Below, one piece after another: positions 17,985 through 64,000 of a DNA stretch of 64,000 bases. The stretch lies in contig VKHL01000057.1 of NCBI GenBank assembly GCA_015146655.1, positions 106,544 through 170,543 on the forward strand, given 5' to 3'. Positions within the stretch are counted from its first letter, which is position 1. Each line of letters opens with the position of its first letter. The position numbers and the translations under genes are program-made. This DNA is from Ochromonas danica. Lineage: Eukaryota; Sar; Chrysophyceae; Chromulinales; Chromulinaceae. The notes beneath the pieces are model-generated. The model worked only from the letters and a program-made list of their open reading frames with translations. It was not told the origin of the DNA and ran no database searches.

Positions 17985-19751
17985 TTATCGACTCTCACCT
18001 AACGCTTTGATTTGATAGTGTGCTTCAAGAGCTTTCGCTTTATATGCTTCAGCCCTCTTACGCTCTTTAGCAAGAGCAGACTTCATTTTGGACTGCATAA
18101 CATCAATTCGTTCTTTGACATCAGGGGCCACACTTCGCAGATGGTTGAGGAAGTCAGCTTTCATTGTATCTACTTGAAGCAAAAGTTGATTATAACGATG
18201 CTCTAATTGGTCATATCTATCCCGAATCTGATTTCGATCTCGTTCAATCTCACCATTCTTTGTGGTGAGACTGGTGACATTGTTTTCCAATTGAATAGCG
18301 CGTGTCATTGCATCACGAGCTTTCTTCTCTGCCGCAGTAACCTTACTTGATTCCTCTTGTTGAGATGCTAGTTGCTTCTTCCTGAACATCTCATTATTGT
18401 TTTCAGCTTCACGTAGTTTTGTCAGAAGAATTTCCTTTTCTTTGCGAATGCGACTAACTTCCGATATCAGCGATTCTTTATCAAACGCTAGTTGCTCTTG
18501 TTGACTAAGAAGCTGATCTTGTAATGAACGGGCATTTTGAGTTGCATCAGCTAACTCCATCTCAGCTATGGCAGCTTTCTTGCGCACTTCTTGCAGCTGC
18601 AGCAGATGAGATCGTCTCAACTCCCGCTCCATGCCCTCCGCCCGCATCTGCACTTCTGACGCCTCGCGTTGTATCTGACGAAGCGATTCTTCTCTTTCTC
18701 TCAGAAGGCTTCGAAGTTGCTGGACTTGATGAGCATGCTCATTGGCAATCAACTGTGCAGTGGATTGACTGGACTCAATTTGACGACTCATCTCGATCTT
18801 AAGAGATTGCACCATTCGTTGAGAACTTTCATATTCTTTTTGACAGTTCTCAAGACGATTTGATAGTTCTTCAGTGAGCAATTTCGATGCTTGAAGGTCA
18901 TTTTCTTTCTCTCCAAGTTGTTTCTCGAGATTAGACAAACGCTGTTGTAAGGCCTGCTTTTCTCCCTCCAATGAAGCCAAAGAAGCTTTCAACAGAACAT
19001 GTTGAGCTTCTCCTTGCTGAGAAGATAAGGTTAAAGCACTTTGTAAGTCATCTCTTTCATGACGTGCCACTTTCACCTCTTCTCGCAGTAGTTCCACTAA
19101 ATGACTCAGTTCAGCTAATTGGGAGGTTTGCTGCCGCAACTTGTCGTCTTTGGTTGAAGTTAGATCAACATATCGATTCTTCACAGATTCACTACGTAAT
19201 GCATCTGTTAGTTGTTCTTTCTCTTGTCGTAAAGAGTTAATCTCATTTTGTTGATTTTGTAACAAGGATTGGTATTCTACACGCACTTTCTCCGCATCAC
19301 GTCTCACCGCAAAACTACGCTCTCGTTGATTTTCTAATTCTTCTTCCATTGATTTGATCTCTTGCTTATGTCGAATCTCTAACTCTTCTTGTACTTTAAT
19401 ACGTAACTGATCAATATCATGTGGAATGAGATCATCACGAATTTTCTCGAATTCTCTTGTTTTTTCTTGTAATTGACTTTTCAAACGATCAATTAGTGCT
19501 TCATGTTGTTGTTCTGCTTCAAACTTCTCTGCTGCAGTGGCTAAATAGCTTTCACGAGCTTCTTTATATTTCTTTTGTATAGTGTGGGACTCTTCTTTGC
19601 TGTGTTCCACGGCATGGCGAAGTTGATCATTCTCATCTTGGAGGGATTTTAATTTCAATGAAGTTCGCTCTAGATCAGAACGCAACTCAGAAATGGTTTG
19701 GATCAGCACAGCATAGTGGTTGGACAGGTCACTGGAGGAAGATTTCTCCAT
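17985..19751 (-). CDS. CEP83: CEP83-like coiled-coil protein
   Basis: Intronless frame of 588 aa, predicted to be almost entirely alpha-helical coiled coil. Compared from memory with human CEP83 (CCDC41), a centriolar distal-appendage protein needed for ciliogenesis, several collinear stretches match in spacing and residues. One is LQEKTREFEKIRDDLIPHDI then DQLRIKVQEELEIRHKQE (CEP83 has LVEKTKDLEEMKLQILTP then LLRAQIQQELETPMRE). Another is VEYQSLLQNQQNEI then LRQEKEQLTDALRSESV. Near the C-terminus, ALAKERKRAEAYKAKALE resembles the CEP83 segment AIAQKKRKSLHENKLKRL. A centriole-to-membrane docking role is inferred. Generic coiled-coil similarity is the main risk. Confidence 0.62.
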   Translation of the reverse strand: MEKSSSSDLSNHYAVLIQTISELRSDLERTSLKLKSLQDENDQLRHAVEHSKEESHTIQKKYKEARESYLATAAEKFEAEQQHEALIDRLKSQLQEKTREFEKIRDDLIPHDIDQLRIKVQEELEIRHKQEIKSMEEELENQRERSFAVRRDAEKVRVEYQSLLQNQQNEINSLRQEKEQLTDALRSESVKNRYVDLTSTKDDKLRQQTSQLAELSHLVELLREEVKVARHERDDLQSALTLSSQQGEAQHVLLKASLASLEGEKQALQQRLSNLEKQLGEKENDLQASKLLTEELSNRLENCQKEYESSQRMVQSLKIEMSRQIESSQSTAQLIANEHAHQVQQLRSLLREREESLRQIQREASEVQMRAEGMERELRRSHLLQLQEVRKKAAIAEMELADATQNARSLQDQLLSQQEQLAFDKESLISEVSRIRKEKEILLTKLREAENNNEMFRKKQLASQQEESSKVTAAEKKARDAMTRAIQLENNVTSLTTKNGEIERDRNQIRDRYDQLEHRYNQLLLQVDTMKADFLNHLRSVAPDVKERIDVMQSKMKSALAKERKRAEAYKAKALEAHYQIKALGESR

Positions 19752-20149
19752 CTTCGCTATAGTTTGAGAGATGATCTGATTTGACTCTTCGCCGACCTTA
19801 ACTTAAGGAGAGATTGTAGCCCAGAAGCCCAACGGTCACTGGAAACGGCTTGTCTGTCCCACGCAACCTAACAACAATATAATAATAATGGCAACGGCAA
19901 TATAATAATTGAAGACAATATAATAATGATAAGATAAGAAACGACTTAATCACTAAACTACGCTCATAGCACTAGCTGACTAACTTATAATAATAAGCAG
20001 AAAATAACACATACACGATGAATCCATATAAACATGTCTACATCACAAGATGCTTCAACACGTGCGACGCCTACAGGATATGGAAATGGATAACAACACA
20101 CCTTATGCTTTCTCAAGCATCAACTTAACACAGAATAACAGACACATCG
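19752..20149. other. AT-rich intergenic region
   Basis: Between the CEP83-like start codon and the 3' end of the first tandem paralogue. It contains repeated ATAATAATA-type simple sequence at about 19870-19935. The part from about 20010 to 20149 resembles the 3' flanks of the other paralogues (a shared stretch with GATATGGAAATGGATAAC and ACAACACACC), so it belongs to the duplication unit. No gene was recognised. Confidence 0.5.
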
Positions 20150-21294
20150 TCACAGATTAGAACTTGGTCGTCCCATTCTCAACGATTCATACTTGTCCAC
20201 GGAAAAACCTTCCATGTCCAAGCGATAGATTCGATTATCATTATCCAACCAATATGTCATCACTGATATGATATCCACTTCATAAGAATTGGTAGAATTC
20301 GTACGCATATCTGAACATAAAGCATCGAACGACAAACCACCTCCAGCAGCCAGAACTGTCTCCAGCTTCTCGCCACTCATCAGCAAATTGTCCCAAAGTC
20401 TCACAGGAATCTTACGTAATATCTGATTCTCGTCCAACAGCTCCATCATATAGTCCTCCACTCTCGTTCCTTGCGCACGGCAAGTCAAGACCAACTGACT
20501 GCCCGCACGATTAAGATGTTGTTTGATTTTCGCATCCTTCAATCGCATCGCAAAGTCAGGACAAGATCCCATACATCCAGACATCACAGACAATATCTGA
20601 TTCAAACCATCCAAACGACGAATAGGAATCTTGCCAAAATCAGGACGCTCTTGACCCTCTTCCCTTAAATAACTGTTCATATGGCAGCTACCCACACTGA
20701 AATTCATGAAAAATGTACAAACCGTCTGTGCATCACGTGAATTGAAGACATTCATCATCATGGTAGGAAAGTCACGTCGAATATCTCGCTTCAAGATGCG
20801 TGGAAGAGGATTCACGCGACGCCAATCCCGACGAGATTTCGTTCTGGGAGCCAGATTTACATCACTGCCCACAGTGAAGTCCACAGCCGTTGAGGTCGAA
20901 GTCGAAGTAGTGGGCGAGGTGATGTCAGAACAGATTTCTTTTGCCACTCGCTTTCGCTCGTTCGACTTCTTACTCTTCTTCTCACTCACCACCAAACTGT
21001 AGTCATCATATCCAAAGCACGGTGAGTCTGGAAGTACAGTGTGACAACGAATAGAATGGATGATACATACCTTAAGCCCGATGAATCTGTCGAGGCCTCA
21101 TTTATATCATTTGCAACATTATCCTCCTCGTAATCTGCAACAGCAACAATCCAATGAAACAATGAGTAGAAGGAGTGTGGATGAACATGATAATGTTGAT
21201 TACCAGCCAGCCATTCGAAGAGATCGTTCATTTCCTCTTGACCAAAGCTTTCATGAATGTCAAGGATAGGTGTTGAGATTGAGAACAGCTCCAT
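20150..21294 (-). CDS. Tandem family paralogue A, unrecognised nuclear-type protein
   Basis: Inferred exons (minus) 21294-21204, 21134-21071 and 20996-20150, giving 333 aa. Exon 1 encodes MELFSISTPILDIHE and ends in DLFEWLA; exon 2 is YEEDN plus a short Ser/Asp segment; exon 3 has a Lys-rich cluster (EKKSKKSNERKRVAKE, a likely nuclear localisation signal) and then the conserved domain. That domain runs RRDWRRVNPLPRILKRDIRR, FPTMMMNVFNSRDAQTVCTF, IRRLDGLNQILSVMSG, PVRLWDNLLMSGEKLE and MTYWLDNDNRIYRLD. The helix with N-S-x-D followed by FF and the late W-x-D-x-x-x-R-I strand recall NTF2/SnoaL-like folds, but this is inference. The two introns (69 and 74 nt) were deduced by aligning the four copies. 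Confidence 0.72.
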
Positions 21295-21758
21295 TTTACT
21301 TATTTTTCCTTGTTGTTCAAGACTAATTTTAATTGGAATGGGCAGGTGAAGTTTGGTTTGGTTTTACTGGACGAAACTTGCAAATACTACGATGCGAGAG
21401 AAAGGAGCGGAGAGGCAAACAATGTTTGGCTGTAATAATCGACGCAAGCTTTAGGTAAATCGCTTTAATATAACATTTCTGTTTAGGGATGACTAAACTA
21501 CGTTTTACGAGTGCAAATAGTTCTGTTTGAATGACTGTAAATAAGACTGGGAATGGCTTTTGATTGCAATTTAAAAATACAAAAAATCTGCCTATCTACC
21601 GCATATTGAGCATCTAATTGAAAGATACCTTATAATATTGAAGTCAAGACTTATCGAGTAGCCTTTACCAGAAAATAACACATACACTTCAACACGTGTG
21701 ATACCTATAGGATATGGAAATGGATAACAACACACCTTAGACTTTTTCAAGCATCATC
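21295..21758. other. Spacer between paralogues A and B
   Basis: Contains the promoter of paralogue A at its left end and the 3' flank of paralogue B at its right end. The segment from about 21486 is recognisably similar to the one from about 23339 in the next spacer (shared CGAGTGCAAATA and GAATGACTGTAAATAA, then GCATCTAATTGAAAG), showing that the duplicated unit includes several hundred bases of 3' flank. No gene seen. Confidence 0.55.
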
Positions 21759-22918
21759 TTAACATGGACTAATAGGGACGTCGTCACAGATCAGCAATCC
21801 CTCGGCCCTTATCATCGATTCATACTTGTCCACGGAAAAACCTTCCACGTCCATGCGATAGATTCGATTATCATTATCCAACCAATATGTGATCTCTGAT
21901 ATGATATCAACTTCAAATGAATTGGTGGATGCAGTATCTGAACATAAAGCATCAAACGACAATCCACCTCCAGCAGCCAGAACTGTCTCCAGCTTCTCGC
22001 CACTCATCAGCAAATTGTCCCAAAGTCTCACAGGAATCTTACGCAATATCTGATTCTCGTCCAATAGCTCCACCATATAGTCTTCCACTCTCGTTCCTTG
22101 TGTACGGCAAGTCAGGACCAACTGACTGCCCTCACGATTGAGATGTTGTTTGATTCTCGCATCTTTCAAGTGCATCACAAAGTCAGGACAAGCTCCCATA
22201 CATCGAGACATCGCAGACAATATCTGATTCAAACCATCCAAACGACGAATAGGAATCTTGCCAAAACTGGGACCATCTTCCTTCAAATAACTGTTCATAT
22301 GGCAGCTACCCACACTGAAATTCATGAAAAATGTACACACCGTCTGTGCATCACATGAATTGAAGACATTCATCATCATGGTAGGAAAGTCACGTCGAAT
22401 ATCTCGCTTCAAGATGCGTGGAAGAGGATTCACGCGACGCCATGCTCGACGAGATTTAGGTCTGGGAGCCAGATTTACATCATTGCCTACAGGGAAGTCC
22501 ACAGCCGTTGAGGTCGAAGTAGAGGTCGGAGTTGAGGGCGAGGTGCTGTCAGAACAGCTTTCTTCAACAACTCGCTTTCGCTTTTTCGACTTCTTACTTT
22601 GCTTCTCACTCACCACCAAACTGTAGTCATCATATCCAAAGCACGGTGAGTTTGGAAGCACAGTGTAACAACGAATAGAATGGATGATACATACCTTAAG
22701 CCCGATGAATCTGTCGAGGCCTCATCCATACCATTTGCAATATTATCCTCCTCGTAATCTGCAATAGACACAATCCAATGAAACAATGAGCGAAGAAGGT
22801 GAGTAGGACGTGTGAAGTGTTGGTTACCAGCCAGCCATTCGAAGAGATCGTTCATCTCCTCTTGACCAAAGCTGTCTTGAATATCCAGTACAGTTGTTGA
22901 GATTGAGAACAGCTCCAT
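21759..22918 (-). CDS. Tandem family paralogue B
   Basis: Same architecture as paralogue A. Inferred exons (minus) 22918-22828, 22758-22695 and 22620-21759 give 338 aa, with introns of 69 and 74 nt at identical positions and phases. The acceptor of intron 2 is the CAG in gactacag. The upstream CAG-like site is CAA in this copy and cannot be used, which settles the model for paralogue A too. Nuclear-type basic cluster EKQSKKSKKRKRVVEE; conserved domain with ILKRDIRRDFPTMMMNVFNS and ITYWLDNDNRIYRMD. An in-frame Met eight codons upstream exists, but the start aligned with the other copies is preferred. A 15-bp minisatellite begins 123 bp upstream. Confidence 0.72.
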
Positions 22919-23040
22919 TTTACTCATTTTCTCGTTCTTCAAGTCTTTAAATTGAGACTACGATGGAAGGAACCTTGGGAACAGGCCTAGTTTGTGTGTT
23001 CGATCTCATTTCCATTGCCAGGTTTGATTCCGGAGGTGCT

Positions 23041-23185
23041 GTGATGTGCTATGCTGTGATGTGCTATGCTGTGATGTGCTATGCTGTGATGTGCTATGCT
23101 GTGATGTGCTATGCTGTGATGTGCTATGCTGTGATGTGCTATGCTGTGATGTGCTATGCTGTGATGTGCTATGCTGTGATGTGCT
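23041..23185. repeat. 15-bp minisatellite, about 9.7 copies
   Basis: Perfect tandem repeats of the 15-mer GTGATGTGCTATGCT cover 145 bases. They lie upstream of paralogue B (minus strand), within its likely promoter region. Because 15 is a multiple of three, all frames through it stay open on both strands; these frames are compositional artefacts. Confidence 0.95.
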
Positions 23186-23654
23186 GAGTAGTGTTGTGTT
23201 GGTGGGTGGGTGGTGCACAAATACTGCCTTGCGAGGGAACAGAGACAACAAATTTTGTTGTGCGAACAGAAAATCCAAAGCAGATCTTAAATCTCTACAC
23301 AAGTTTTGTGAATCGTTGAACTATATCATTAATGATTAGGGATGAAAACTCTATGGTTTTCGAGTGCAAATAATTCTGTTCGAATGACTGTAAATAACTC
23401 ACTACTGTTGGTGACCAATCTTTGCTTTTCTTTAACAAATCAGAAAATATGTTTTTCTACCACATGTTTAGCATCTAATTGAAAGGTGCCTTATACCAAT
23501 AAAGTACAAGACTTGTCGAGTAGCATTAACTAGAAAATAACATATACAAAAATCCATACAAGCATCTCCACATCTCAAGATGCTCCAATATGTTCGACGC
23601 CTGCAGGATATAGAAATGGATAACAACACAACTTATAGTTTACCGAGCATCATC
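23186..23654. other. Spacer between minisatellite and paralogue C
   Basis: Includes a segment from about 23339 homologous to the 3' flank of paralogue B. It ends with the sequence GATATAGAAATGGATAAC, shared with minor variation by the 3' flanks of all four copies. No gene recognised. Confidence 0.5.
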
Positions 23655-24796
23655 TTAACATACAATAACAGACACGTCGCCACAGATCCGCACCTGGCCG
23701 TCCTCCATAATTGATTCATAGTTGTCCACGGAGAAGCCTTCAACGTCCATGCGATAGATTCGATTATCATTATCCAACCAATATGTCATCTGTGATATGG
23801 AATCAACTTCATATGGCTTGATGGATGCCTTATGTCTATCTACAGAAATAGCATCAGGCAACAATCCACCTCCAGCAGCCAGAACTGTCTCGAGCTTCTC
23901 TCCACTCATCAGCAAATTGTCCCAAAGTCTCACAGGAATCTTACGCAAAGCATTATTCTCGTCCAACAGCTCCACCATATAGTCCTCTACTCTCGTTCCT
24001 TGCGCACGGCAAGTCAAGACCAACTGACTGCCCTCGCGATTGAGATGCTGCTTGATTCTCGCATCCTTCAATCGCACCACAAAGTCTGGACAAGATCCCA
24101 TACATCCAGAGATCACAGACAATATCTGATTCAAACCATCCAAACGACGAATAGGATGCTTGCAAAAGCGAGGGCCATCTTCCTTCAAATAACTATTCAT
24201 GTGGCAGCTACCCACACTGAAATTCATGAAAAATGTACACACCGTCTGTGCATCACATGAATTGAAGGCATTCATCATCATGGTAGGAAAGTCACGTCGA
24301 ATATCTCGCTTCAAGATGCGTGGAAGAGGATTCACGCGACGCCATGCTCGACGAGATTTAGGTCTGGGAGCCAGATTCACATCATCGCCCACAGGGAAGT
24401 CCAAAGCATTCGAGGTCAAAGTAGAGGTCGGAGTTGAGGGAGAGACACTGTCAGAACAGCTTTCTTCAACAACTCGCTTTCGCTTGTTCGCCTTCTTACT
24501 CTTCTTCTCACTCACCACCAAACTGTAGTCATCACATCCAGAGCGCGGTGAGGAGTCTGGAAGCACAGTGTGACAACGAAAGCCCGATGAATCTGTCGAG
24601 GCCTCATCCATAGCATTTGCAACATTATCCTCCTCGTAATCTGCAAAAGACACAATCCAATGAAACAATGAGCGAAGAAGGCGAAATTGCGATAATGTTG
24701 GTTACCAGCTAGCCATTTAAAGAGATCGTTCATCTCATCTTGGCCAAAGCTTTCATGAATGTCAAGAACAGGTGCCGATATTGAGAGCAACTCCAT
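23655..24796 (-). CDS. Tandem family paralogue C, with exonised second intron
   Basis: Inferred exons (minus) 24796-24706 and 24640-23655, giving 358 aa; only the first intron (65 nt) remains. At the place of intron 2 in copies A and B, the donor segment (AAGGTATGTATC onward) is deleted. The remaining intron sequence reads through in frame as FRCHTVLPDSSPRSGCDDY before joining SLVVSEKKSKK. The protein therefore carries about 20 extra residues derived from intron. The conserved domain is intact (FPTMMMNAFNSCDAQTVCTF, MTYWLDNDNRIYRMD), although the segment near GGLLPDAISVDRHKASI diverges from the others. Function unrecognised. Confidence 0.7.
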
Positions 24797-25313
24797 TTTA
24801 CTTATTTTGCTTCAGCTTCAATCAGCATCAATGAGTGTCATTGGGTTGTCCTGATGTGTTCCAAGAGAGTGTTGGCTTTGGTTCTCACTTTGGTGCAAAA
24901 GCAAGAAGTTCATTTTCGTTTCCGTTTGTTCGGCTTTTGTGTCAAGCATCACGTGGTTTACGGCACTGATTACAGTGCAGACATTCTTGAATAAAACCGT
25001 GTGTATAATGATTATACATTAACTTTTGCCATATAAAACACTCTTGAAAGTGAATTGGAGAAGACGGTGACATCTATCTATCTCTTATTGAAATTGGCTG
25101 AAGTCATATTTATTCATCTCTTGTATTCATATATTTACAGATAATAATAGCAAGTGGCCATTAAGCCTTAACGGGTAATAAAAACCAGAAAAAACACATA
25201 CAAAAATCCATAAAAGCATGTCCGCATATCAAGAAGCTGCAACATATAAGATGCCAACAGGATATGGAAATGGATAACAACACACCTTACAACAGAATTT
25301 CTCAAGCATCATC
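24797..25313. promoter_or_regulatory. Spacer with promoter block shared by paralogues C and D
   Basis: About 105 bp upstream of the paralogue C start, a 36-base stretch (24901-24936, beginning GCAAGAAGTTCATTTTCG) is identical to 26545-26580, about 110 bp upstream of paralogue D. Copies A and B lack it at this place. The right part (about 25000-25170) resembles 26650-26765 downstream of the giant gene, so the duplicated unit extended that far. The role as promoter element is inferred from position and conservation. Confidence 0.5.
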
Positions 25314-26433
25314 TTAGCATACAATAACAGACACGTCGTCACAGATTAGAACTTGGTCTTCCTTTATCATCGATTCATACTTGTCCACGGAAAAACCTTC
25401 CACGTCCATGCGATAGATCCGATTATCATTATCCAACCAATATGTCATCTGTGATATGATATCAACTTCATATGGCTTAGTAGATACAGCATGCATATCC
25501 GAACATAAAGCATCGAACGACAAACCACCTCCAGCAGCCAGAACTGTCTCCAGCTTCTCGCCACTCATCAGCAAACTGTCCCAAAGTCTCACAGGAATCT
25601 TACGCAATATCTGATTCTCGTCCAATAGCTCCACCATATAGTCTTCTACTCTCGTTCCTCGTGCATGGCAAGTCAAGACCAACTGACTGCCCGCACGATT
25701 AAGATGCTGTTTGATTCTCGCATCTTTCAATTGCATCACAAAGTCAGGACAAGATCCCACACATCCAGACATCGCAGACAATATCTGATCTAGCCCGTCT
25801 AAACGACGAATAGGATGCTTGCCAAAACTGGGACCCTCTTCCTTCAAATAACTGTTCATTTGGCAGCTACCTACACAAAAATTCATGAAAAATGTACAAA
25901 CCATCTGTGCATCACATGAATTGAAGACATTCACTATCATGGTAGGAAAGTCACGTCGAATATCTCGCTTCAAGATGCGCGGAAGAGGATTCACGCGACG
26001 CCAATCCCGACGAGATTTCGTTCTGGGAGCCAGATTCACATCATCGCCCACAGGGTTGTCCACAGTCGTTGAGGTTGAGGTCGAAGTAGAGGTCGGAGTT
26101 GAGGGAGAGGCACTGTCAGAACAGCTTTCTTCAACAACTCGCTTTCGCTTGTTCGCCTTCTTACTCTTCTTCTCACTCACCACCAATCTGTGGTCATCAC
26201 ATCCAAAGCGCGGTGAATCTGTCGAGACCTCATTCATACCATTTGCAATATTACTCTCCTCATAATCTGTCATGAACACAATCCAATGAAACAATGAGCG
26301 AAGAAGGTGAGAAGGAGTGTGAATGAACATGATGTTGGTTACCAGCAAGCCATTCGAAGAGATCGTTAATCTCCTCTTGACCAAAGCTTTCTTCAAAATC
26401 AAGGATAGGTGCTGAGATTGATAGCAGCTCCAT
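25314..26433 (-). CDS. Tandem family paralogue D
   Basis: Inferred exons (minus) 26433-26343 and 26266-25314 give 347 aa. Intron 1 (76 nt, acceptor gacag) is at the same position and phase as in the other copies. Intron 2 is absent, but its last 29 bases or so remain as coding sequence (SPRFGCDDHR between STD and LVVSEKKSKK), a shorter exonised remnant than in paralogue C. Basic cluster KKSKKANKRKRVVEE; conserved domain with RRDFPTMIVNVFNSCDAQM, IRRLDGLDQILSAMSG and MTYWLDNDNRIYRMD. It is transcribed in the same direction as copies A-C. Confidence 0.72.
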
Positions 26434-26770
26434 TTTACTTATTTATCTTCTGCTTCAATCTTGTTGATTGAGGATCGAGTGTCATTTGTCTTGATGATCG
26501 TGGGTGTTGGCTTTCGTTTTCACTTCCCGGGGTGTGCAAAGCAAGCAAGAAGTTCATTTTCGTTTCCGTTTGTTCGGCTTTCGGGTTTTGTTTGGGGGGG
26601 AAAAAGCGAGGTTTATTAGTCTATGGGTTTTAACCTCACCATAGACATTCATGGTGTGTATAATGATTGATACATTAACTTTTGTCATAGAAGGTGACAT
26701 TTATTTAATTATCTCTTGTATTTATATATATTTACACATAATAATAGCAAGTGGCTATCATTAAATGACA
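26434..26770. promoter_or_regulatory. Promoter of paralogue D and 3' flank of the giant gene
   Basis: Holds the 36-base block (26545-26580) shared with the paralogue C promoter. A segment from about 26650 is similar to 25000-25170, with ATACATTAACTTTTG and ATAATAGCAAGTGG in common. No gene recognised. Confidence 0.45.
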
Positions 26771-29700
26771 TTATCGTAAAAACGTATCACTTGGTTGCAC
26801 ATGTGATCTCAAACCTGATGCACCCTTTGCATAATCTAATAGATCGGCTGCATCAGAGAGCATGGAAATGTCGAATATATCACTTTCTTCAGACACTTGT
26901 GAGTCGAACGAAGCATTTTGCTTCGCCCTTTCAGAACTATTTGGAGCGCTTTGTTGCTTACTTCGAGTTTTGCGCAAAGCTTGATACACATTTTGGTAGG
27001 TACTGTTAGGAAGCAAAGTCTCTTCCAAATGGTCACGACTTCCTCGACTGCCAGTGCTGCTACCAGTACCTGGTGTGCTTATATGCGATATGTTGATACT
27101 ACGCTCAGGTGTGAATAGAAGACTGTGACCGACTGCCGCTTCTGACTCTTGTAGCCTGTTGACTAAACTCGCTTCGTCCTGTCGACTAAAAGAAGCTTCA
27201 AATAAGTCCCTACTTGCTGATGAAGACTTGCCAGAAGCGGAGTTATCGTGTGATGTTCGAACGAAGTCGTCTGCTTCCAAAACTTCAACACGTCGTCGAG
27301 GCGATAATCCGTCATTACTAGTCTCGATAAGGGAGGTCTTCCTCTTTTCGACAAGAGCGGTAGTTGCATCTTCACTCCTTGTAACTGTAATGTTAGGAAA
27401 AGGATGCATCTTGTGGTTATCTTTGACGATATCTTCATCAGCCGTTATACTCGATAAATTAAGTTGAGGTTTGTGATGAGTGGAATCCAAAGTCTTGCTT
27501 TGCATTAGGTCCTTCTTCGATATAGGTTGATCTGACGACCCCTTTAGAGATGAATAGTCAGCGCTACTCAATGCTGACGCAGAAATGAGTTGAGCTGATC
27601 TAGATGAAGGTTCAACAACGGTGGCTCTGATATCAAATCCCCTTTGCGAGCCGATAGAGCGATCATTACTGCTAGAATGCAGATGTGCAGCGCCTTCAGA
27701 GGACTGTGAACGGTTGCTGTCATTATGACGAACTTTCTTGTCTTCGCCTTTGTTGAGAAAAGAAGGAATAAGCGTGTGAGCAGGAGCCAAGACAACAACT
27801 TCATTCCCTTCATTAGCATCGCCAGGGGAAGGAAGTGTGCCTCCACCCTTTCCGCAGCTTGAGCTGCGGCACTTGAAAGGTAAGATAGCTAGCTTATTAT
27901 GAAGCACATAATGGAATCCACTCAGGTCAATCAGCTTCTTTTTCATCATCGATAGCTGACTGTTGAACTGAGCAGAAAGAACTGGTTGATTGAGCAGTGT
28001 TGCCATATCTGCACAAAGATAAACAATGACCTCGTGAATTTGCAATGAATGCAAAAGTAAATCATCCTGCCATAAATCTATCTTGGCCAACAAACTCTTG
28101 TCATTAGGCTCAGCAGGTTGCTGACTGGGCTTCTTTTTAACTGGACTATTGGAGCTTTGTAACAGACGGTTAATGTACTCCAATAAGACACTGAACTCCT
28201 CTTGCTTTTTACTCAAGGACTCTTGCAACTGAATATTCTTTTGATGTAAGAGATTATGCTCTTTTTCTCGATTCTCTGCCAGAGAGATAATGCTGGTGTA
28301 CATGGAAATAGTCTCTCTTAGTTTGACGATACTACTCAAAGCATCATCTCTCTGTGCAACCATTTGATCATAACGATGTTGCAAATCTGTGACTTGAGAT
28401 CGCAACTGGTCCTTTTCTGCGTCTAAGCTCTTATCCAAACCCTCTTTGTGGACTTTCTCCAAATCGGTGCGGACCAACAGATAGGCATTTTCTAAAGTTT
28501 TGACCTTGTCTTCGGCAGCATTGAGAGCAGTGCGACTGTCTTTACAGGCTTGCTGTTGCGCTGTGCTTTCTTCTTTCTCAAGCAATAACTCTTGCTTCAA
28601 TTCTTCAATTTGAGAAAGTAAAACAGCCTCACTGATCCTTTCTGAATCCAACTCCTGTTCCAACCTCACCTTATCAGCAAGAGCCAATTCCAACTCCCTC
28701 AATACATCACTATGTATTTGAAAATGCTTCTCCAACTCACTCTTCGTTTCCACATAAGCGCCTTCCTTCTCTGTCAACTCGCGCCTCTTTTCATTCAGTG
28801 CATCTTCCATCTCAAGTAACTTGGCTTCTAAGCCTTCCACGCGGCTGCGATACGAACCCACTTCCTTCGCTAACTCGCTCTCACTGGCGGAAAGCTCCGC
28901 TTCGAGACTTTCAAGTCGCTTCCTTTCCGTCGAGAGTTGAAGCTGACTTTCAGAGAGCAGAGCGTCCTTCTCTTGAAGCGTCATTTGTAGAGCAGTCCTC
29001 TCTTGAGCTAACAGCTGATTTGCATCTTCCAACTCTTTGTACTGTTGCTGGCTGCTCAATACCAGATCCTGGTGATTCTGGAGATCTTCTTTGTAATGAA
29101 CCTCTCTTTCAGAAGCCACAACCACCTGCTGTTGGAGTTCCACACAGCGCTCGCTGAGTTGCCGATTGCTTTCCCTCAGTTCGAACAGATTGGATAGCTC
29201 TTGTTGGTATTTCGTAAGAGCTTCTGCGTGACTCACTTGCAAGCTCGCAAGCTGCCTATCCGCTGCTTCACAACGACTAGTCAGTGCATCCTTCTCTTGA
29301 GCATGCTCTTGACGTAAAGCTGACAACTCAATCATGCGGGTCGTCAATACTTCCTGCAGCTGCTTTACTTCCACTTCTCGATCGCTTGTGCGTTGGAGAG
29401 CATCCTCACTCACTTTGCATTGAGAAACAAATTGAGCATGAAAGCCATCTCGTTCTCGTCGAGCATCTTCCAATGTTGCCAACGCAGATCGATGTGCCAA
29501 CTGAAGCTTCTCCCATTCATCCTGGAGTTCTTGGTACTGCTGTGTTTGAGTAGTCTTGTGTGCTTCTCTTGTCCTTACTAATTCCGCCCTCACACTCTCC
29601 AGATCCCCTTCCAGCACTGTAACTCTAGATGTGGCCTTGCTAAACAAGTCCTGCAACGTCGCGAGTTCCTGGGAGAGAACAGAGTACTGGTCTCTCTCCT

Positions 29701-32700
29701 TCTCCAACTCACTCTTCGTTTCCACATAAGCGCATTCCTTCTCTGTCAACTCGCGCCTCTTTTCATTCAGTGCATCTTCCATCTCAAGTAACTTGGCTTC
29801 TAAGCCTTCCACGCGGCTGCGATACGAACCCACTTCCTTCGCTAACTCGCTCTCACTGGCGGAAAGCTCCGCTTCGAGACTTTCAAGTCGCTTCCTTTCC
29901 GTCGAGAGTTGAAGCTGACTTTCAGAGAGCAGAGCGTCCTTCTCTTGAAGCGTCATTTGTAGAGCAGTCCTCTCTTGAGCTAACAGCTGATTTGCATCTT
30001 CCAACTCTTTGTACTGTTGCTGGCTGCTCAATACCAGATCCTGGTGATTCTGGAGATCTTCTTTGTAATGAACCTCTCTTTCAGAAGCCACAACCACCTG
30101 CTGTTGGAGTTCCACACAGCGCTCGCTGAGTTGCCGATTGCTTTCCCTCAGTTCGAACAGATTGGATAGCTCTTGTTGGTATTTCGTAAGAGCTTCTGCG
30201 TGACTCACTTGCAAGCTCGCAAGCTGCCTATCCGCTGCTTCACAACGACTAGTCAGTGCATCCTTCTCTTGAGCATGCTCTTGACGTAAAGCTGACAACT
30301 CAATCATGCGGGTCGTCAATACTTCCTGCAGCTGCTTTACTTCCACTTCTCGATCGCTTGTGCGTTGGAGAGCATCCTCACTCACTTTGCATTGAGAAAC
30401 AAATTGAGCATGAAAGCCATCTCGTTCTCGTCGAGCATCTTCCAATGTTGCCAACGCAGATCGATGTGCCAACTGAAGCTTCTCCCATTCATCCTGGAGT
30501 TCTTGGTACTGCTGTGTTTGAGTAGTCTTGTGTGCTTCTCTTGTCCTTACTAATTCCGCCCTCACACTCTCCAGATCCCCTTCCAGCACTGTAACTCTAG
30601 ATGTGGCCTTGCTAAACAAGTCCTGCAACGTCGCGAGTTCCTGGGAGAGAACAGAGTACTGGTCTCTCTCCTTCTCCAACTCACTCTTCGTTTCCACATA
30701 AGCGCATTCCTTCTCTGTCAACTCGCGCCTCTTTTCATTCAGTGCATCTTCCATCTCAAGTAACTTGGCTTCTAAGCCTTCCACGCGGCTGCGATACGAA
30801 CCCACTTCCTTCGCTAACTCGCTCTCACTGGCGGAAAGCTCCGCTTCGAGACTTTCAAGTCGCTTCCTTTCCGTCGAGAGTTGAAGCTGACTTTCAGAGA
30901 GCAGAGCGTCCTTCTCTTGAAGCGTCATTTGTAGAGCAGTCCTCTCTTGAGCTAACAGCTGATTTGCATCTTCCAACTCTTTGTACTGTTGCTGGCTGCT
31001 CAATACCAGATCCTGGTGATTCTGGAGATCTTCTTTGTAATGAACCTCTCTTTCAGAAGCCACAACCACCTGCTGTTGGAGTTCCACACAGCGCTCGCTG
31101 AGTTGCCGATTGCTTTCCCTCAGTTCGAACAGATTGGATAGCTCTTGTTGGTATTTCGTAAGAGCTTCTGCGTGACTCACTTGCAAGCTCGCAAGCTGCC
31201 TATCCGCTGCTTCACAACGACTAGTCAGTGCATCCTTCTCTTGAGCATGCTCTTGACGTAAAGCTGACAACTCAATCATGCGGGTCGTCAATACTTCCTG
31301 CAGCTGCTTTACTTCCACTTCTCGATCGCTTGTGCGTTGGAGAGCATCCTCACTCACTTTGCATTGAGAAACAAATTGAGCATGAAAGCCATCTCGTTCT
31401 CGTCGAGCATCTTCCAATGTTGCCAACGCAGATCGATGTGCCAACTGAAGCTTCTCCCATTCATCCTGGAGTTCTTGGTACTGCTGTGTTTGAGTAGTCT
31501 TGTGTGCTTCTCTTGTCCTTACTAATTCCGCCCTCACACTCTCCAGATCCCCTTCCAGCACTGTAACTCTAGATGTGGCCTTGCTAAACAAGTCCTGCAA
31601 CGTCGCGAGTTCCTGGGAGAGAACAGAGTACTGGTCTCTCTCCTTCTCCAACTCACTCTTCGTTTCCACATAAGCGCATTCCTTCTCTGTCAACTCGCGC
31701 CTCTTTTCATTCAGTGCATCTTCCATCTCAAGTAACTTGGCTTCTAAGCCTTCCACGCGGCTGCGATACGAACCCACTTCCTTCGCTAACTCGCTCTCAC
31801 TGGCGGAAAGCTCCGCTTCGAGACTTTCAAGTCGCTTCCTTTCCGTCGAGAGTTGAAGCTGACTTTCAGAGAGCAGAGCGTCCTTCTCTTGAAGCGTCAT
31901 TTGTAGAGCAGTCCTCTCTTGAGCTAACAGCTGATTTGCATCTTCCAACTCTTTGTACTGTTGCTGGCTGCTCAATACCAGATCCTGGTGATTCTGGAGA
32001 TCTTCTTTGTAATGAACCTCTCTTTCAGAAGCCACAACCACCTGCTGTTGGAGTTCCACACAGCGCTCGCTGAGTTGCCGATTGCTTTCCCTCAGTTCGA
32101 ACAGATTGGATAGCTCTTGTTGGTATTTCGTAAGAGCTTCTGCGTGACTCACTTGCAAGCTCGCAAGCTGCCTATCCGCTGCTTCACAACGACTAGTCAG
32201 TGCATCCTTCTCTTGAGCATGCTCTTGACGTAAAGCTGACAACTCAATCATGCGGGTCGTCAATACTTCCTGCAGCTGCTTTACTTCCACTTCTCGATCG
32301 CTTGTGCGTTGGAGAGCATCCTCACTCACTTTGCATTGAGAAACAAATTGAGCATGAAAGCCATCTCGTTCTCGTCGAGCATCTTCCAATGTTGCCAACG
32401 CAGATCGATGTGCCAACTGAAGCTTCTCCCATTCATCCTGGAGTTCTTGGTACTGCTGTGTTTGAGTAGTCTTGTGTGCTTCTCTTGTCCTTACTAATTC
32501 CGCCCTCACACTCTCCAGATCCCCTTCCAGCACTGTAACTCTAGATGTGGCCTTGCTAAACAAGTCCTGCAACGTCGCGAGTTCCTGGGAGAGAACAGAG
32601 TACTGGTCTCTCTCCTTCTCCAACTCACTCTTCGTTTCCACATAAGCGCATTCCTTCTCTGTCAACTCGCGCCTCTTTTCATTCAGTGCATCTTCCATCT

Positions 32701-35700
32701 CAAGTAACTTGGCTTCTAAGCCTTCCACGCGGCTGCGATACGAACCCACTTCCTTCGCTAACTCGCTCTCACTGGCGGAAAGCTCCGCTTCGAGACTTTC
32801 AAGTCGCTTCCTTTCCGTCGAGAGTTGAAGCTGACTTTCAGAGAGCAGAGCGTCCTTCTCTTGAAGCGTCATTTGTAGAGCAGTCCTCTCTTGAGCTAAC
32901 AGCTGATTTGCATCTTCCAACTCTTTGTACTGTTGCTGGCTGCTCAATACCAGATCCTGGTGATTCTGGAGATCTTCTTTGTAATGAACCTCTCTTTCAG
33001 AAGCCACAACCACCTGCTGTTGGAGTTCCACACAGCGCTCGCTGAGTTGCCGATTGCTTTCCCTCAGTTCGAACAGATTGGATAGCTCTTGTTGGTATTT
33101 CGTAAGAGCTTCTGCGTGACTCACTTGCAAGCTCGCAAGCTGCCTATCCGCTGCTTCACAACGACTAGTCAGTGCATCCTTCTCTTGAGCATGCTCTTGA
33201 CGTAAAGCTGACAACTCAATCATGCGGGTCGTCAATACTTCCTGCAGCTGCTTTACTTCCACTTCTCGATCGCTTGTGCGTTGGAGAGCATCCTCACTCA
33301 CTTTGCATTGAGAAACAAATTGAGCATGAAAGCCATCTCGTTCTCGTCGAGCATCTTCCAATGTTGCCAACGCAGATCGATGTGCCAACTGAAGCTTCTC
33401 CCATTCATCCTGGAGTTCTTGGTACTGCTGTGTTTGAGTAGTCTTGTGTGCTTCTCTTGTCCTTACTAATTCCGCCCTCACACTCTCCAGATCCCCTTCC
33501 AGCACTGTAACTCTAGATGTGGCCTTGCTAAACAAGTCCTGCAACGTCGCGAGTTCCTGGGAGAGAACAGAGTACTGGTCTCTCTCCTTCTCCAACTCAC
33601 TCTTCGTTTCCACATAAGCGCATTCCTTCTCTGTCAACTCGCGCCTCTTTTCATTCAGTGCATCTTCCATCTCAAGTAACTTGGCTTCTAAGCCTTCCAC
33701 GCGGCTGCGATACGAACCCACTTCCTTCGCTAACTCGCTCTCACTGGCGGAAAGCTCCGCTTCGAGACTTTCAAGTCGCTTCCTTTCCGTCGAGAGTTGA
33801 AGCTGACTTTCAGAGAGCAGAGCGTCCTTCTCTTGAAGCGTCATTTGTAGAGCAGTCCTCTCTTGAGCTAACAGCTGATTTGCATCTTCCAACTCTTTGT
33901 ACTGTTGCTGGCTGCTCAATACCAGATCCTGGTGATTCTGGAGATCTTCTTTGTAATGAACCTCTCTTTCAGAAGCCACAACCACCTGCTGTTGGAGTTC
34001 CACACAGCGCTCGCTGAGTTGCCGATTGCTTTCCCTCAGTTCGAACAGATTGGATAGCTCTTGTTGGTATTTCGTAAGAGCTTCTGCGTGACTCACTTGC
34101 AAGCTCGCAAGCTGCCTATCCGCTGCTTCACAACGACTAGTCAGTGCATCCTTCTCTTGAGCATGCTCTTGACGTAAAGCTGACAACTCAATCATGCGGG
34201 TCGTCAATACTTCCTGCAGCTGCTTTACTTCCACTTCTCGATCGCTTGTGCGTTGGAGAGCATCCTCACTCACTTTGCATTGAGAAACAAATTGAGCATG
34301 AAAGCCATCTCGTTCTCGTCGAGCATCTTCCAATGTTGCCAACGCAGATCGATGTGCCAACTGAAGCTTCTCCCATTCATCCTGGAGTTCTTGGTACTGC
34401 TGTGTTTGAGTAGTCTTGTGTGCTTCTCTTGTCCTTACTAATTCCGCCCTCACACTCTCCAGATCCCCTTCCAGCACTGTAACTCTAGATGTGGCCTTGC
34501 TAAACAAGTCCTGCAACGTCGCGAGTTCCTGGGAGAGAACAGAGTACTGGTCTCTCTCCTTCTCCAACTCACTCTTCGTTTCCACATAAGCGCATTCCTT
34601 CTCTGTCAACTCGCGCCTCTTTTCATTCAGTGCATCTTCCATCTCAAGTAACTTGGCTTCTAAGCCTTCCACGCGGCTGCGATACGAACCCACTTCCTTC
34701 GCTAACTCGCTCTCACTGGCGGAAAGCTCCGCTTCGAGACTTTCAAGTCGCTTCCTTTCCGTCGAGAGTTGAAGCTGACTTTCAGAGAGCAGAGCGTCCT
34801 TCTCTTGAAGCGTCATTTGTAGAGCAGTCCTCTCTTGAGCTAACAGCTGATTTGCATCTTCCAACTCTTTGTACTGTTGCTGGCTGCTCAATACCAGATC
34901 CTGGTGATTCTGGAGATCTTCTTTGTAATGAACCTCTCTTTCAGAAGCCACAACCACCTGCTGTTGGAGTTCCACACAGCGCTCGCTGAGTTGCCGATTG
35001 CTTTCCCTCAGTTCGAACAGATTGGATAGCTCTTGTTGGTATTTCGTAAGAGCTTCTGCGTGACTCACTTGCAAGCTCGCAAGCTGCCTATCCGCTGCTT
35101 CACAACGACTAGTCAGTGCATCCTTCTCTTGAGCATGCTCTTGACGTAAAGCTGACAACTCAATCATGCGGGTCGTCAATACTTCCTGCAGCTGCTTTAC
35201 TTCCACTTCTCGATCGCTTGTGCGTTGGAGAGCATCCTCACTCACTTTGCATTGAGAAACAAATTGAGCATGAAAGCCATCTCGTTCTCGTCGAGCATCT
35301 TCCAATGTTGCCAACGCAGATCGATGTGCCAACTGAAGCTTCTCCCATTCATCCTGGAGTTCTTGGTACTGCTGTGTTTGAGTAGTCTTGTGTGCTTCTC
35401 TTGTCCTTACTAATTCCGCCCTCACACTCTCCAGATCCCCTTCCAGCACTGTAACTCTAGATGTGGCCTTGCTAAACAAGTCCTGCAACGTCGCGAGTTC
35501 CTGGGAGAGAACAGAGTACTGGTCTCTCTCCTTCTCCANNNNNNNNNNTGTGGCCTTGCTAAACAAGTCCTGCAACGTCGCGAGTTCCTGGGAGAGAACA
35601 GAGTACTGGTCTCTCTCCTTCTCCAGCTCAGATGTTGTGGTGTTGTATCGATGCTGTAGATGTTTCACTTCCATTTGAAGCATCTCATGGTCATACTGAA

Positions 35701-38700
35701 GTTTCGCATAATCCCCTTGTAGCGTTGCCTTTTGATTAATTGCTTCTGTTACCTCCTTCTTGAGTTGATTATTGGCATCGTGTAAATCTGATAGCTCCCG
35801 TGTGGTCTTAGAACAAAGAGACTCGAACTTCTGCAATTGCTCCAAGGAGTCAAGCGAAGCTATGCGATGTTGCTGCTCATCCTCTTTGATGCTCTCCAAT
35901 ATTCGTTGAAGATTTTGCAGCTTTTCTTCATACTCTCCCCTGATCATAAACATCAATTTCAAGGAGTCACACAAGACATTTATCAAACGCAAATAAGATC
36001 ATCAGTACCTAATGATAGCGACTTGTTGGTTGCTCAATAGTTGGTGTTGTTGAAGCTGTTGTTGCTGCTCTCGACACTGCTTATACAACGCCATACAAAG
36101 CTCCTCCGAATTACGAGCATTGACCAAGGATAAAGAGAGTTCTTCAGAATGTACTGGAACTACTTCGCGAGTAACTAGAGTTCTGAGTGAACAATGCACA
36201 AAAATATCACATTATGTTGTATGAATTAATGATAAGCAATCAAACCTGATTATATGTTTGTGTAGATTGAGCAACTCCACCAATTCGCATTGAACATCTC
36301 TGTGTTGCCCCTGTAATAAAGTTGTTGAAGTCCAAATACTTCGCACAGTATCCAGCCATTTCGATCTTTGCTGTTGATATGACTGGACCTGTTTTTTCAG
36401 TAAATCATTGCTTGCTTGACATTCTTCCAAAGTAGCCTACAAACAACACACACATAACCGTCATCCATCATCCAACTACACATGCAGATACAGTATTATC
36501 CACTAACTCTCAAGTCGGAAATCCTCTTTTCATATGTCTCCTCCATTTCTTGCAGTACGTCTTGTGCTTCCTCATAAAGAGCATGAGTGCGACTGTATTT
36601 CTCACACAATATTTCACATTCTTTTCTAATTTCATTACTTCGGACAATTTCTTTGTCGAATTCCTCTTGCAGATCATTGTGAGTTTGAATCAAATTATCG
36701 TATTCGATTTGCTTGGCTAGCTGTTCATTGTATTCACCGCGCAACTTTTCCAATTCTTCAGCTAGAGATTGATACTTGTATTGACTGTCCTGATCCACAA
36801 TACTTCGACTAGCTATTTCTTCTTCCAATAGAGAATAGCTCTCTTGTATCGTAGAGAGCTCATGTTGTAGTTTTGACACTTGCTCTAGTAAGCTCTCATG
36901 CTCGATTTGCCAATGCTGTTTCGCATTCGCATATTGCACTGCTTCTCGCGTAGCTTCAGCAAAAGCGTTTTCATGAGTTTCTAACAATTGCTGATATTGG
37001 TGTTGGAGGGAAGAATAGTCTTGCATAGTCTTGGTATTCGAGGCCTCAACTCGTTGATATTCTCTGTCCAGACTTTTGAATTTCTCCTCGAAGTGTTGCT
37101 TTGAAATAGATAGCTCCTCTTCGCGGTCATGAATGGTCTTACGATACTGTTCAATCAACAAGTCGTGATCAGATCTCGCTCGAAGCTTCGTATCTTCGGT
37201 GTCTTGTTCTAATGCAGATATTAACTGTGACTTCTGTTTTCCATCCATCACAGATAAAAACAATCACACAAAAATAATCAGAAAATGACTAACTATATGG
37301 ATAAAATAGAAATCATTACCTGACGAGTCTCCGCTAGCAACAATTCGACTTCTTTGTCCTTTTTCACCAACAGCTCTTTGGACATCACATTTTCTTGTTG
37401 TAGAGCTGCCAGTCGTCGAGTTAGCTCTTCATTAACAGTCTTATTATTCTGTTCCATATAAGACAGACTACTCAAGAACTGATTCTCTTTATTAGTGAGG
37501 TCTTGTTTTATGGAAACAAGTGACTGGTTGAGATCATCAATAGTTGCAGTTAATTTGATAATTTGTTGATTACTTTGAGCTCTTAACGTTTGTAAATCAT
37601 TCTCTTTCTCTTCCAAAATAGATAGAACATCATGATACTTGCCTTGATAATCTTCCAGCTCACTCGATAGTTTACGATTCTCTTCGGAAAGTTGGTTCAT
37701 GTTGGTATGAATACTTTGCAATTCTTTTGCATTCAATAGAGCACTGTTTCGTTTTTCTTCTTGTAGCATAACTAGCTGTTCTTGTAAATGAGAAAACAAC
37801 TTGAGTTTCTCTCCAGTCTCATCTTGCAGTTTTATCAGAGAATGCTCACGGGCAGATTTCTCTTCAACACAACTTTGCAATGCTTCCGACAATTCTTTCA
37901 CTTGAAGACCGCTGCTCTTTTGTATTGACAACAAAAGACTAAACTCTCTATCCATTGCTTCACGATAAGATTCCAACTGATTGCGAACATCTTGCTTTAA
38001 AGAATTTAAATGAATAAACAAATCTTGTACCGCGAGATTCATACTTTGAAAGTTATACTTGTATTTGCTACCTTTCTGCTTCTCCATAAGTGTTTCTGAT
38101 TTATGAAGAAGTAGTTCACTGTTTGCCGAAGTTAGTTCTTGTTTCATGAGATTGACTTCTTGCTCCAACGCTTCCAATTGTAACTTATATATACTGATAG
38201 ATGTCGATAAACGCTCTCGTTCAGTCTCACAATCTTGATAAGCTTGATCTTTAGATATCAACAATTGATTTTGCTTATTAAGATTATTCTTATTCTCTTC
38301 TGAGATTTTCTGTAAACTTTTCATATTTTCTTGTAGTTGAGAATTAGCTTCTTGTAAATGAGATCGTTCACGTTGCCAAATTTGTTCATTCGTTTTATAT
38401 TCTGCAACTTCTTCAGCTAATCGATCAATTTCATGTTTTAGAGAGAGTCGTTCATTACGCAATTCGATTGATTCCTTTTGAAAGGCTAAAATCTCGTCAT
38501 CCTTTTCGCAAAGCATGTGATAATACTTGCTTTGCATCTCTTCGATGGTCGTGTTACAGTCACGATCTTTCTCTTGTACTTTCTGATCTGATGACAGAAT
38601 AGCGTTTTCAAGGTCTTCTTTCTCCTGAATTAGTCGTGAAATGGTATCTTGTTGAACACTTCTCTCCTCATCCATCTTCTTATGCGATCGTAACAGATTG

Positions 38701-40314
38701 TCATACTCCTTTTGCAAAGCGATCATAGCAATACTGTTCTCTTCTGTTTCCTTAGTGTACAAGTCCAACAATTCCGAATATTTCTCACTGACATTTTGGA
38801 ATAGAGACTGGTGTTGTTCTTGTTGAGAGAGAAAGTGCTGATTGTTCTCCTTTAGTACAGCAACCTCATCATAGAGATTGTTAATCAGTTTATTGTTTGC
38901 TTCACATTCTTTCTCCAAAATGAAAATGGAGCTTTTGGCATGTTGTAACTGGCTATCGACATGTTCCTTCTCTGCTTTCAAAGAAGAAAGTTCGGCTTCA
39001 AGAGCACTCATCTTTTCCACTTTCTCTTCATAGAATTGAATCTTATTGGAAAATACCTTTTGCTTCTCCTCTAATTCCCCAAGAAGAACAACGGATCTGG
39101 ATAGCTCTTGTAAAAGGTCATACTTATTCTGGACAATGTTTTGCATTTCAATCTTGGAGTATACTGGCATTTGCTGAGATGTTTGTGCTACCAATCTCTC
39201 CGCCTGATTACCCAGTGCATTGGTGACCTGTATAGCTGTTTCCAAAGCAGTCGATCCAACATAATGAGCTGTTTGAGCAATACTCGACCCAACCGTGGAT
39301 CCAAAATCACGCAATGATCGAGGAATTGGAGCCTGGATATCTTGCTCTCCCACCTCTAGACTTTGCCGAACAATGTTCATATTCAATGGTGAAGGGTCTC
39401 TGATAGTTGTTGGAGAGGGAGCTAGTGAAGCTGTCTGCGATTGGGACTTCAGCTTCCGCAGTGAAGAAGGAGAGAAAGGCATAGAATCGTCCAACCGCAG
39501 TTCCTGTTGTCTGCTTAGCGGCAAAGGGCTGTAGAAACGCTTCTTATGGACTGATTTGGGAGAGAATGTGAACACTTGATTCCGTGTGGATAACAAGTCT
39601 GCAGTCTGCAACGGAACATCTCCAGTTGGGAGAGGCGATGATCCGGATTTGCGTCTATCTAATGAATGATTGCGAAGACGTCTCCGACCACTACCAGTAC
39701 CCGCACTATGGGGCGATTTGATCGGCAGACTGTTGGGATGATTAGCAGCAGTGAGATTCTCCTCGTTGCTAACGGACAGTAACAGCTGCGGTGAGGAATG
39801 TGAATGAGGTATTGACCCTGTTGATTTCTTCGGTGACAAGAGAGCATCTAGTGTATTCAATCGAGCTGAAGAACTGCTTTGTTGATTCTCACGTTTACGA
39901 CTTTTGCTTTTGCTTCGACGTTCTTCAGACTTCCCTGTTCACGCACACACACGTAAAAGCACAATTAATACTATGAGATGATAGATGGAGAAGGGAGAAG
40001 AAAAGTGTTTTCCACTGACAAGAAGCGGTGATATTCTTAAACCAGATCGTCTTTTTCTGATCTTTCATTGACTTTAACAATTCCACGATTTGCTCAAATG
40101 GATAGGAACGAACATCTTCACCATTCACATAGGAAATGACATCTCCAATAGAGACTTTGCTTTCCAAGACTTGTTGATCAATACCACTGTGTCCCACAGT
40201 GTAGAAGAAGTCCTTCACACGACAACCCAATTCTCGTTCAGCTGATTTGATCAAAGGCTCAAGTTCCAAGCCCATAGGCCCAGGAGGAAACTCAACACTA
40301 TAATCAACTTTCAT
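26771..40314 (-). CDS. Giant PDZ plus coiled-coil protein with identical 324-residue repeats
   Basis: Inferred exons (minus) 40314-40020, 39934-37320, 37233-36508, 36436-36246, 36182-36009 and 35939-26771 join in frame to about 4389 aa as assembled. Residues about 5-95 form a PDZ domain: carboxylate-binding loop PPGPMGLELEP, then SIGDVISYVNGEDVRSYPFE. A Ser/Pro-rich basic linker follows (LSPKKSTGSIPHSHSS, SRKRENQQSSSS). From about residue 320 the protein is almost pure Glu/Gln/Leu-rich coiled coil. Exon 6 contains seven tandem 324-aa repeats, a unique coiled coil and then a Ser-rich tail ending YAKGASGLRSHVQPS. Introns are 63-86 nt. Such proteins usually act as long tethers at centrosomes, Golgi or basal bodies; which applies here is unknown. 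The 10-N gap in exon 6 makes the true length uncertain. Confidence 0.82.
28728..35538 (-). repeat. Seven tandem 972-bp coding repeats
   Basis: Period 972 bp (324 codons), seven copies, all inside the last exon of the giant coiled-coil gene. The copies appear identical at the nucleotide level by eye; the only difference found is C versus A in GCG[C/A]TTCC near the 3'-most copy (Gly instead of Cys in the protein). Each unit runs from EKERDQYSVLSQELATLQDL to ECAYVETKSEL. A unit divisible by three keeps any copy number in frame. The upstream edge abuts an assembly gap, so the count is a minimum or an assembler's estimate. Confidence 0.95.
35539..35548. other. Assembly gap (10 N)
   Basis: Ten undetermined bases. 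The 77 bases before the gap (35462-35538) reappear exactly after it (35549-35625). This is what an unmerged overlap between two contig ends in a repeat would look like. Removing one 77-base copy plus the Ns deletes 87 bases (29 codons) and leaves the frame intact. Confidence 0.95.
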
Positions 40315-56413: not shown

Positions 56414-57104
56414 CATGCTAGATGACTACATTGCTGAACAGAAGATGTCTGGGATTATTGTGATTGTTGTTCATTTTATTGTCATCTTGTGTACCAAGTG
56501 TGCAATGTTTGAGACTCTTGTAAACTACTGATTATACCTTTTCCTCGAAACCATCTTTCATCTTATCTGAAGCTTTGTTGCAATTGGTGTATCGTTTTCC
56601 TCTGCAACTATGCCGAAGCCCATTGAAATGAACCTCGATGGTCTACATCATCGTGTAGTGGTATTGATAGTAATAGTATTATACTTGTATAATATTATAC
56701 TTATATACAAGTAGTTTAGTAATTACATAAGCACATGTTAAGTTAGATATACATCACTACTCTGTTTACATGCCCATTTTTGACACCAAACTCGAGAAAG
56801 TGGCTTTTAAAGTCAATTTTGCGAATCAGCAAAGTCACAAAATAATGAAAGTGTGCATTTTTTCCCTGTGTGTGAAATATTGAAAGTCTCTATTATCATC
56901 ACATTTAGTTACCTTTTCCTCACTTTCGACTTCCACCACTCAACCATCACCACACCATGCAGCGGGCTGTGGCCAAGAAAACCGCGAAGTGACACACTCT
57001 AGCACTGTGAGCTGGGAGGGTCCGTCTATGTTAAGTTGGTCTTCTCTCTGTTAGCCTTATTGCCATGGATAGATAATCAAACAAATTACCCGAACAAGCA
57101 GTCC
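56414..57104. other. Intergenic region with promoter-side duplicated block
   Basis: Contains the CSPP1-like 3' flank, an AT-rich inverted repeat (56682-56713), and from about 56877 to 57080 a block that recurs at about 63697-63924 near the window end. The block is the immediate upstream region and leader of the GDPD-ankyrin gene. It includes an in-frame TTG-initiated extension upstream of the chosen ATG that I do not consider coding. Confidence 0.55.
56682..56713. repeat. AT-rich inverted repeat
   Basis: TACTTGTATA at 56682-56691 is the exact reverse complement of TATACAAGTA at 56704-56713, with a 12-nt spacer. It lies about 270 bases after the CSPP1-like stop. It could form a hairpin in RNA; function unknown. 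Confidence 0.6.
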
Positions 57105-63696: not shown

Positions 63697-64000
63697 GAAA
63701 TACTGAAAGTCTCTATTATCTCTCAGAAACATCACATTTAGTTACCTTTTCCTCACTTTCGACTTCCACCACTCAACCATCACCACACCACGCAGCGGGC
63801 TGTGGCCAAGAAAACCGCGAAGTGACACACTCTAGCACTGTGAGCTGGGAGGGTCCGTCTATGTTAAGTTGGTCTTCTCTCTGTCAGCCTTATTGCCATG
63901 GATAGATAGATAATCAAACAAATTGAGACCATCATCCATGGAGAACGAGAAGGCTTACAAAACAGAACAAAAGATCTTCTTTATCAACTTGAAAGAAGTT
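63697..64000 (+). pseudogene. Broken second copy of the GDPD-like gene 5' region
   Basis: From about 63697 the sequence repeats the upstream block of the GDPD-ankyrin gene (about 56877-57080), with small differences such as an inserted CTCTCAGAA and an extra GATA. At about 63925-63928 it jumps directly to the equivalent of about 57447, missing roughly 365 bases. The missing part contains the start ATG, the signal peptide and the HRG and E-x-D motifs of the domain. It then follows the coding sequence (MENEKAYKTEQKIFFINLKE) to the window end with no difference seen. Lacking the start and active site, this copy is probably a pseudogene unless another start is used; its continuation lies outside the window. 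Confidence 0.72.

Follow-up and report, generated by a model that had tools for sequence, protein, structure and literature searches.

A gene for a large coiled-coil-like protein in Ochromonas danica is printed with seven copies of a 972-bp unit. The best explanation is a real in-frame tandem duplication of at least two units, which a K=77 de Bruijn assembly would have printed as seven perfect copies although it left the repeat unresolved; we give this reading a probability of about 0.75. All positions refer to the window, the whole 64,000-nucleotide stretch of DNA that was analysed, and its main features are collected in Table 1.

Table 1. Features of the repeat array, its assembly join and its host gene (feature; positions in the window; strand; basis or remark).
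Perfectly periodic block	28763..35538	-	972-bp self-comparison, 6.97 units as printed
Terminal part of the 3'-most unit, with the substitution at 28762 and 35 matching bases	28727..28762	-	Gly codon; Cys codon in the remaining units as printed
Ten-N run, an assembly gap touching the array end	35539..35548	.	Sequence
Contig overlap, 77 bases identical to 35462-35538	35549..35625	-	Exact match
Predicted last exon, containing the whole array	26771..35939	-	GT-AG model; other acceptors possible
Five predicted upstream exons of the same gene, the first PDZ-like and the rest partly coiled-coil-like	35939..40314	-	GT-AG model
Final 77 bases of the window, identical to 57445-57521	63924..64000	.	Exact match

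The printed periodicity is perfect over 6776 bp. Self-comparison at a lag of 972 gave a longest match of 5804 bases, which rules out chance similarity as the source of the array, and none of the other 24 lags tested between 960 and 984 gave a match of more than 10 bases. Repeat finding returned seven copies at a constant spacing of 972 bp, with 100% identity across 300-base reference blocks. At the edge of the array the mismatch at 28762 is followed by 35 more matching bases (28727-28761), and no 21-mer of the unit occurs elsewhere in the window outside 28727-35640. The first-pass annotation had placed the array at 28728-35538; the end is correct and the start is 28727. It had also described an in-frame unit of 324 codons, and the minus-strand frame is indeed open through the whole array. 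As printed, then, adjacent copies in one orientation and one frame lie within one gene, the arrangement of an intragenic coding tandem repeat. The seven near-identical copies reported earlier are present in the printed sequence, but this does not carry over to seven, or to identical, units in the genome.

The first-pass annotation overlooked the gap at the end of the array. The window contains a single run of N, ten bases long, which abuts the last unit, and the 77 bases before it are repeated exactly after it. When overlap lengths from 20 to 399 were tried across the gap, 77 bases was the only fit. The base after the overlap is G in the flank and A in the periodic continuation. Two contigs thus overlap by 77 bases and diverge exactly where entry into the array and another round of it branch. 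The reading frame seems open across the gap because the ten N and the 77 repeated bases add up to 87 bases, or 29 codons, and the printed protein accordingly has about 29 surplus residues there (25 repeated and four X).

De Bruijn assemblers leave exact K-mer overlaps at contig ends, and the exact 77-base ends point to such an assembly with K=77. The last 77 bases of the window suggest a second, independent end of this length if the scaffold stops there, but the window may instead simply have been cut at this point. These bases belong to a second duplicated stretch, 56897-57521 and 63730-64000, in which exact blocks of 61, 93 and 77 bases return about 6.5-6.8 kb downstream, the last block closing the window. 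A K of 77, ten-N gaps and the removal of bubbles are habits of SPAdes, and we take the assembler of this sequence to be SPAdes-like and bubble-removing.

What a K=77 graph can tell about such a locus was modelled with error-free, one-strand graphs built on the flanks and units of the window itself. A locus with one unit gave a single unbranched path. With 2, 3, 7 or 12 units the unitig lengths were identical: besides the two flanks, each graph had one repeat of 944 bp and one link of 182 bp, the latter made of 28 new bases and two 77-mers. The modelled right flank starts with the terminal 77-mer of the repeat, matching the record. Graph topology therefore gives two or more units, never seven.

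The same models show what happens to differences between units. Every fourth base was substituted singly and in turn, in the leftmost, fourth or rightmost of seven units, and 603 of the 722 positions tested gave simple bubbles of equal length. The 119 that did not were either within 77 bases of the ends of the 944-bp repeat (117) or at the first base of the link (2). De Bruijn assemblers usually remove simple bubbles. The one surviving difference, at 28762, is 35 bases from the point where unit and flank diverge, inside the bubble-free zone; taken alone its position is weak evidence, about 16% of positions being alike in this respect. Because of the 77-base overlap by the gap, a graph blind to copy number and the hiding of differences, neither the copy number nor the identity of the units is a measurement of the genome. 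The argument that identity at silent sites makes the array very young or homogenised loses its support for the same reasons, as the graph is the same for 2, 3, 7 and 12 units and most differences form bubbles. An assembly join can in this way pass for striking biology, with silent-site identity over seven units mimicking a recent expansion.

The literature on this point includes a review (PMC6868369). The benchmark PMC6052550 describes a tandem repeat as a loop that has a single entry and a single exit, and the graph of our locus is of this kind. It states that, in its bacterial sets, repeats longer than the insert size were rebuilt only by dnaasm and SPAdes. In the simulated rows examined, SPAdes 3.11.0 printed two units where the array had two, and 0 or 2 where it had three to five; the simulated units in these rows were of 100-500 bp in 2-5 copies, against 972 bp and seven printed copies here. 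This benchmark cuts both ways: the counts are unreliable, yet SPAdes 3.11.0 undercounts. The seven in the record could have come from depth, mate pairs or long reads, and may be roughly correct.

Some duplication is probably real. The link from unit to unit needs reads that pass from one unit into the next. The base matching 28762 is A in the link, in a Cys codon, but C in the 3'-most unit, in a Gly codon, and because of this difference at least two units are probably real in the genome. Both borders of the array have CTTCTCCA in common, an 8-bp match at which the link joins them. Beyond it come one mismatch and then CTCA, all from codons of a SELEK motif present at both ends. A link at this point is consistent with slippage or unequal exchange where a short stretch is identical. 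We suggest that the ancestral gene had one copy of the unit, with similar SELEK-coding stretches 972 bp apart, and that the first duplicate would have arisen by slippage or unequal exchange at the common CTTCTCCA. Later exchange of whole units could alter their number and keep the frame. In the protein the effect would be a longer rod, with the heptad register probably held across the unit joins, as judged from a periodicity scan and a single-sequence helix model.

Several other explanations would leave a similar record. The genome may truly hold about seven near-identical units, through recent expansion or through unequal crossing over or gene conversion, with an assembler that counted them by depth or long-range reads. 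Seven copies with one difference are, after all, what is printed, and if SPAdes undercounts, as in the benchmark rows examined, seven would hardly be a default value. Many clustered differences would probably break the graph, which suggests that the units are not very diverged. However, the array ends at a gap with an exact 77-base contig overlap, the graph cannot count the units, and most single differences between them would be hidden. We regard a true seven as unlikely, although less so than the other alternatives. The printed path could also be a mixture of two alleles, or of two cells or strains in the sample, with unequal numbers of units. Our graph models indicate that such a mixture would give the same loop as one long array, but nothing in the window points to one, and within it the 21-mers of the unit are confined to the array region. 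A mixture seems improbable.

The least probable explanation, which we consider very doubtful, is an in vitro chimera: the cell would have a single-copy gene, and the link would have formed, for example during whole-genome amplification, by template switching at CTTCTCCA. The link does unite the borders at an 8-bp match, and in vitro chimeras often form at such short matches. A chimera of a single-copy gene should, however, carry the base of the 3'-most unit, and the link base is absent from that unit, so an additional change would be needed.

The host gene was modelled with GT-AG introns as six exons that start with an ATG at 40314 and end with a stop at 26771, giving 4379 residues as printed with N read as X. 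The start codon is our choice and further 5' exons are possible; four of the five introns have alternative splice choices. The predicted protein, of about 4,380 residues, is largely coiled-coil-like. The product of the first exon (40018-40314) is best called PDZ-like: its matches to PF00595 (18.8 bits against a curated Pfam cut-off of 23.2) and PF17820 (16.9 against 27) both fall short, and comparison with solved chains gave eight weak matches, the best with an E value of 0.0055. The unit itself matched CCDC22 (PF05667) with 23.9 bits, under the curated cut-off of 39.2; we put this down to coiled-coil composition and rejected CCDC22 as its identity. Matches elsewhere in the gene were also below the Pfam thresholds: Tht1 and TPR_MLP1_2 in ORF 36496-37263, and DUF3095 in 26771-28801. 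The Pfam scan of ORF 37293-39860 gave no match.

The first-pass annotation had called the protein a coiled coil, and prediction supports a helical, coiled-coil-like character. The unit has no proline and its best hydrophobic period is 3.53. AlphaFold2 run without an alignment predicted helices at residues 2-101 and 109-323 with a mean pLDDT of 82.9, falling below 50 at residues 97-108. The power at exactly 3.5 was 14.6, within the range of 300 shuffles (maximum 63.3), which speaks against a plain heptad repeat; stutters would yield such missing power. Outside the unit, the best period was 3.53 in ORF 37293-39860 from residue 221 onward, 3.50 in the first 150 residues of the last ORF and 3.46 after the array, and the peak for ORF 36496-37263 was 5.15. 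The periodicity scan detected no heptad-like hydrophobic period in the last 450 or so residues. The best heptad register was unchanged in scan windows from residue 267 through 358, which span a unit join, with scores near zero at windows 302, 309 and 358. For residues 2560-2720 of the last ORF, single-sequence modelling gave a mean pLDDT of 62.2.

A helix rises 0.1485 nm per residue, and a unit of 324 residues would as a helix be about 48 nm long, in agreement with the earlier suggestion of steps of tens of nanometres. The gene might act as a molecular ruler, a PDZ-like coiled-coil tether in a protist whose length would differ between strains or cells in 324-residue (~48 nm) steps, with unequal exchange of whole units keeping frame and register. 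We think this improbable as matters stand. If long reads were to confirm several identical units, the locus would become a good case for change in the length of a coiled-coil rod by whole units.

The nearest parallel in form is filaggrin (FLG). According to PMC5225520, its coding repeats in primates are 972-975 bp each, in frame and in one exon, with 10 to 12 complete repeats among humans; their nucleotide diversity is high and the authors fit birth-and-death evolution. The likeness to our array lies in long in-frame repeats of equal unit length within one exon, whereas the protein here is helical and coiled-coil-like. The two were compared by description rather than by sequence, and we take the equal unit length as coincidence.

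Protists have repetitive coiled-coil cytoskeletal proteins, the trypanosome flagellum-attachment proteins among them, that form a second parallel. They too are long coiled-coil proteins whose repeats share a reading frame, but their repeat units are much shorter, and the gene described here differs also in its predicted GT-AG introns and PDZ-like start; this comparison also is by description only. Among viral_contigs 117 stretches fitted a search pattern and none was confirmed as a relative, and searching both genome_contigs and viral_contigs with one 31-base probe gave no exact match. None of the titles listed in literature searches made without the species name dealt with this gene, which says little. 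Searches for RNA families at the gathering score and for tRNAs found none.

The surroundings of the gene contain further repeats. On the minus strand, 20073-26581 holds four tandem paralogous genes spaced about 1.6-1.9 kb apart, with a main block that shares 89-94% identity with the reference copy; the two copies scanned against Pfam gave no match. The assembly kept these diverged copies separate, in contrast to the units of the 972-bp array. Between the paralogous genes lies a perfect minisatellite (23037-23185) with a period of 15 bp and 9.9 copies. Long acidic ORFs with similar segments repeated occupy 4599-8860, and the one that was scanned (4599-7823) has an EF-hand match of 20.6 bits, below the Pfam cut-off of 25.

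A second coiled-coil-like protein, of 588 residues and with no Pfam match, is encoded on the same strand at 17985-19751; it may resemble the centriolar protein CEP83. FabF-type and FabH-type enzymes are encoded near the gene, and FabF-like chains were among the PDB matches. The introns predicted for the gene indicate a eukaryote, and these enzymes hint at a plastid-bearing protist without proving it. Within this protist-like neighbourhood, the predicted protein at 16454-17860 has a major royal jelly protein (MRJP) domain, with a score of 52.6 bits against a threshold of 19.8.
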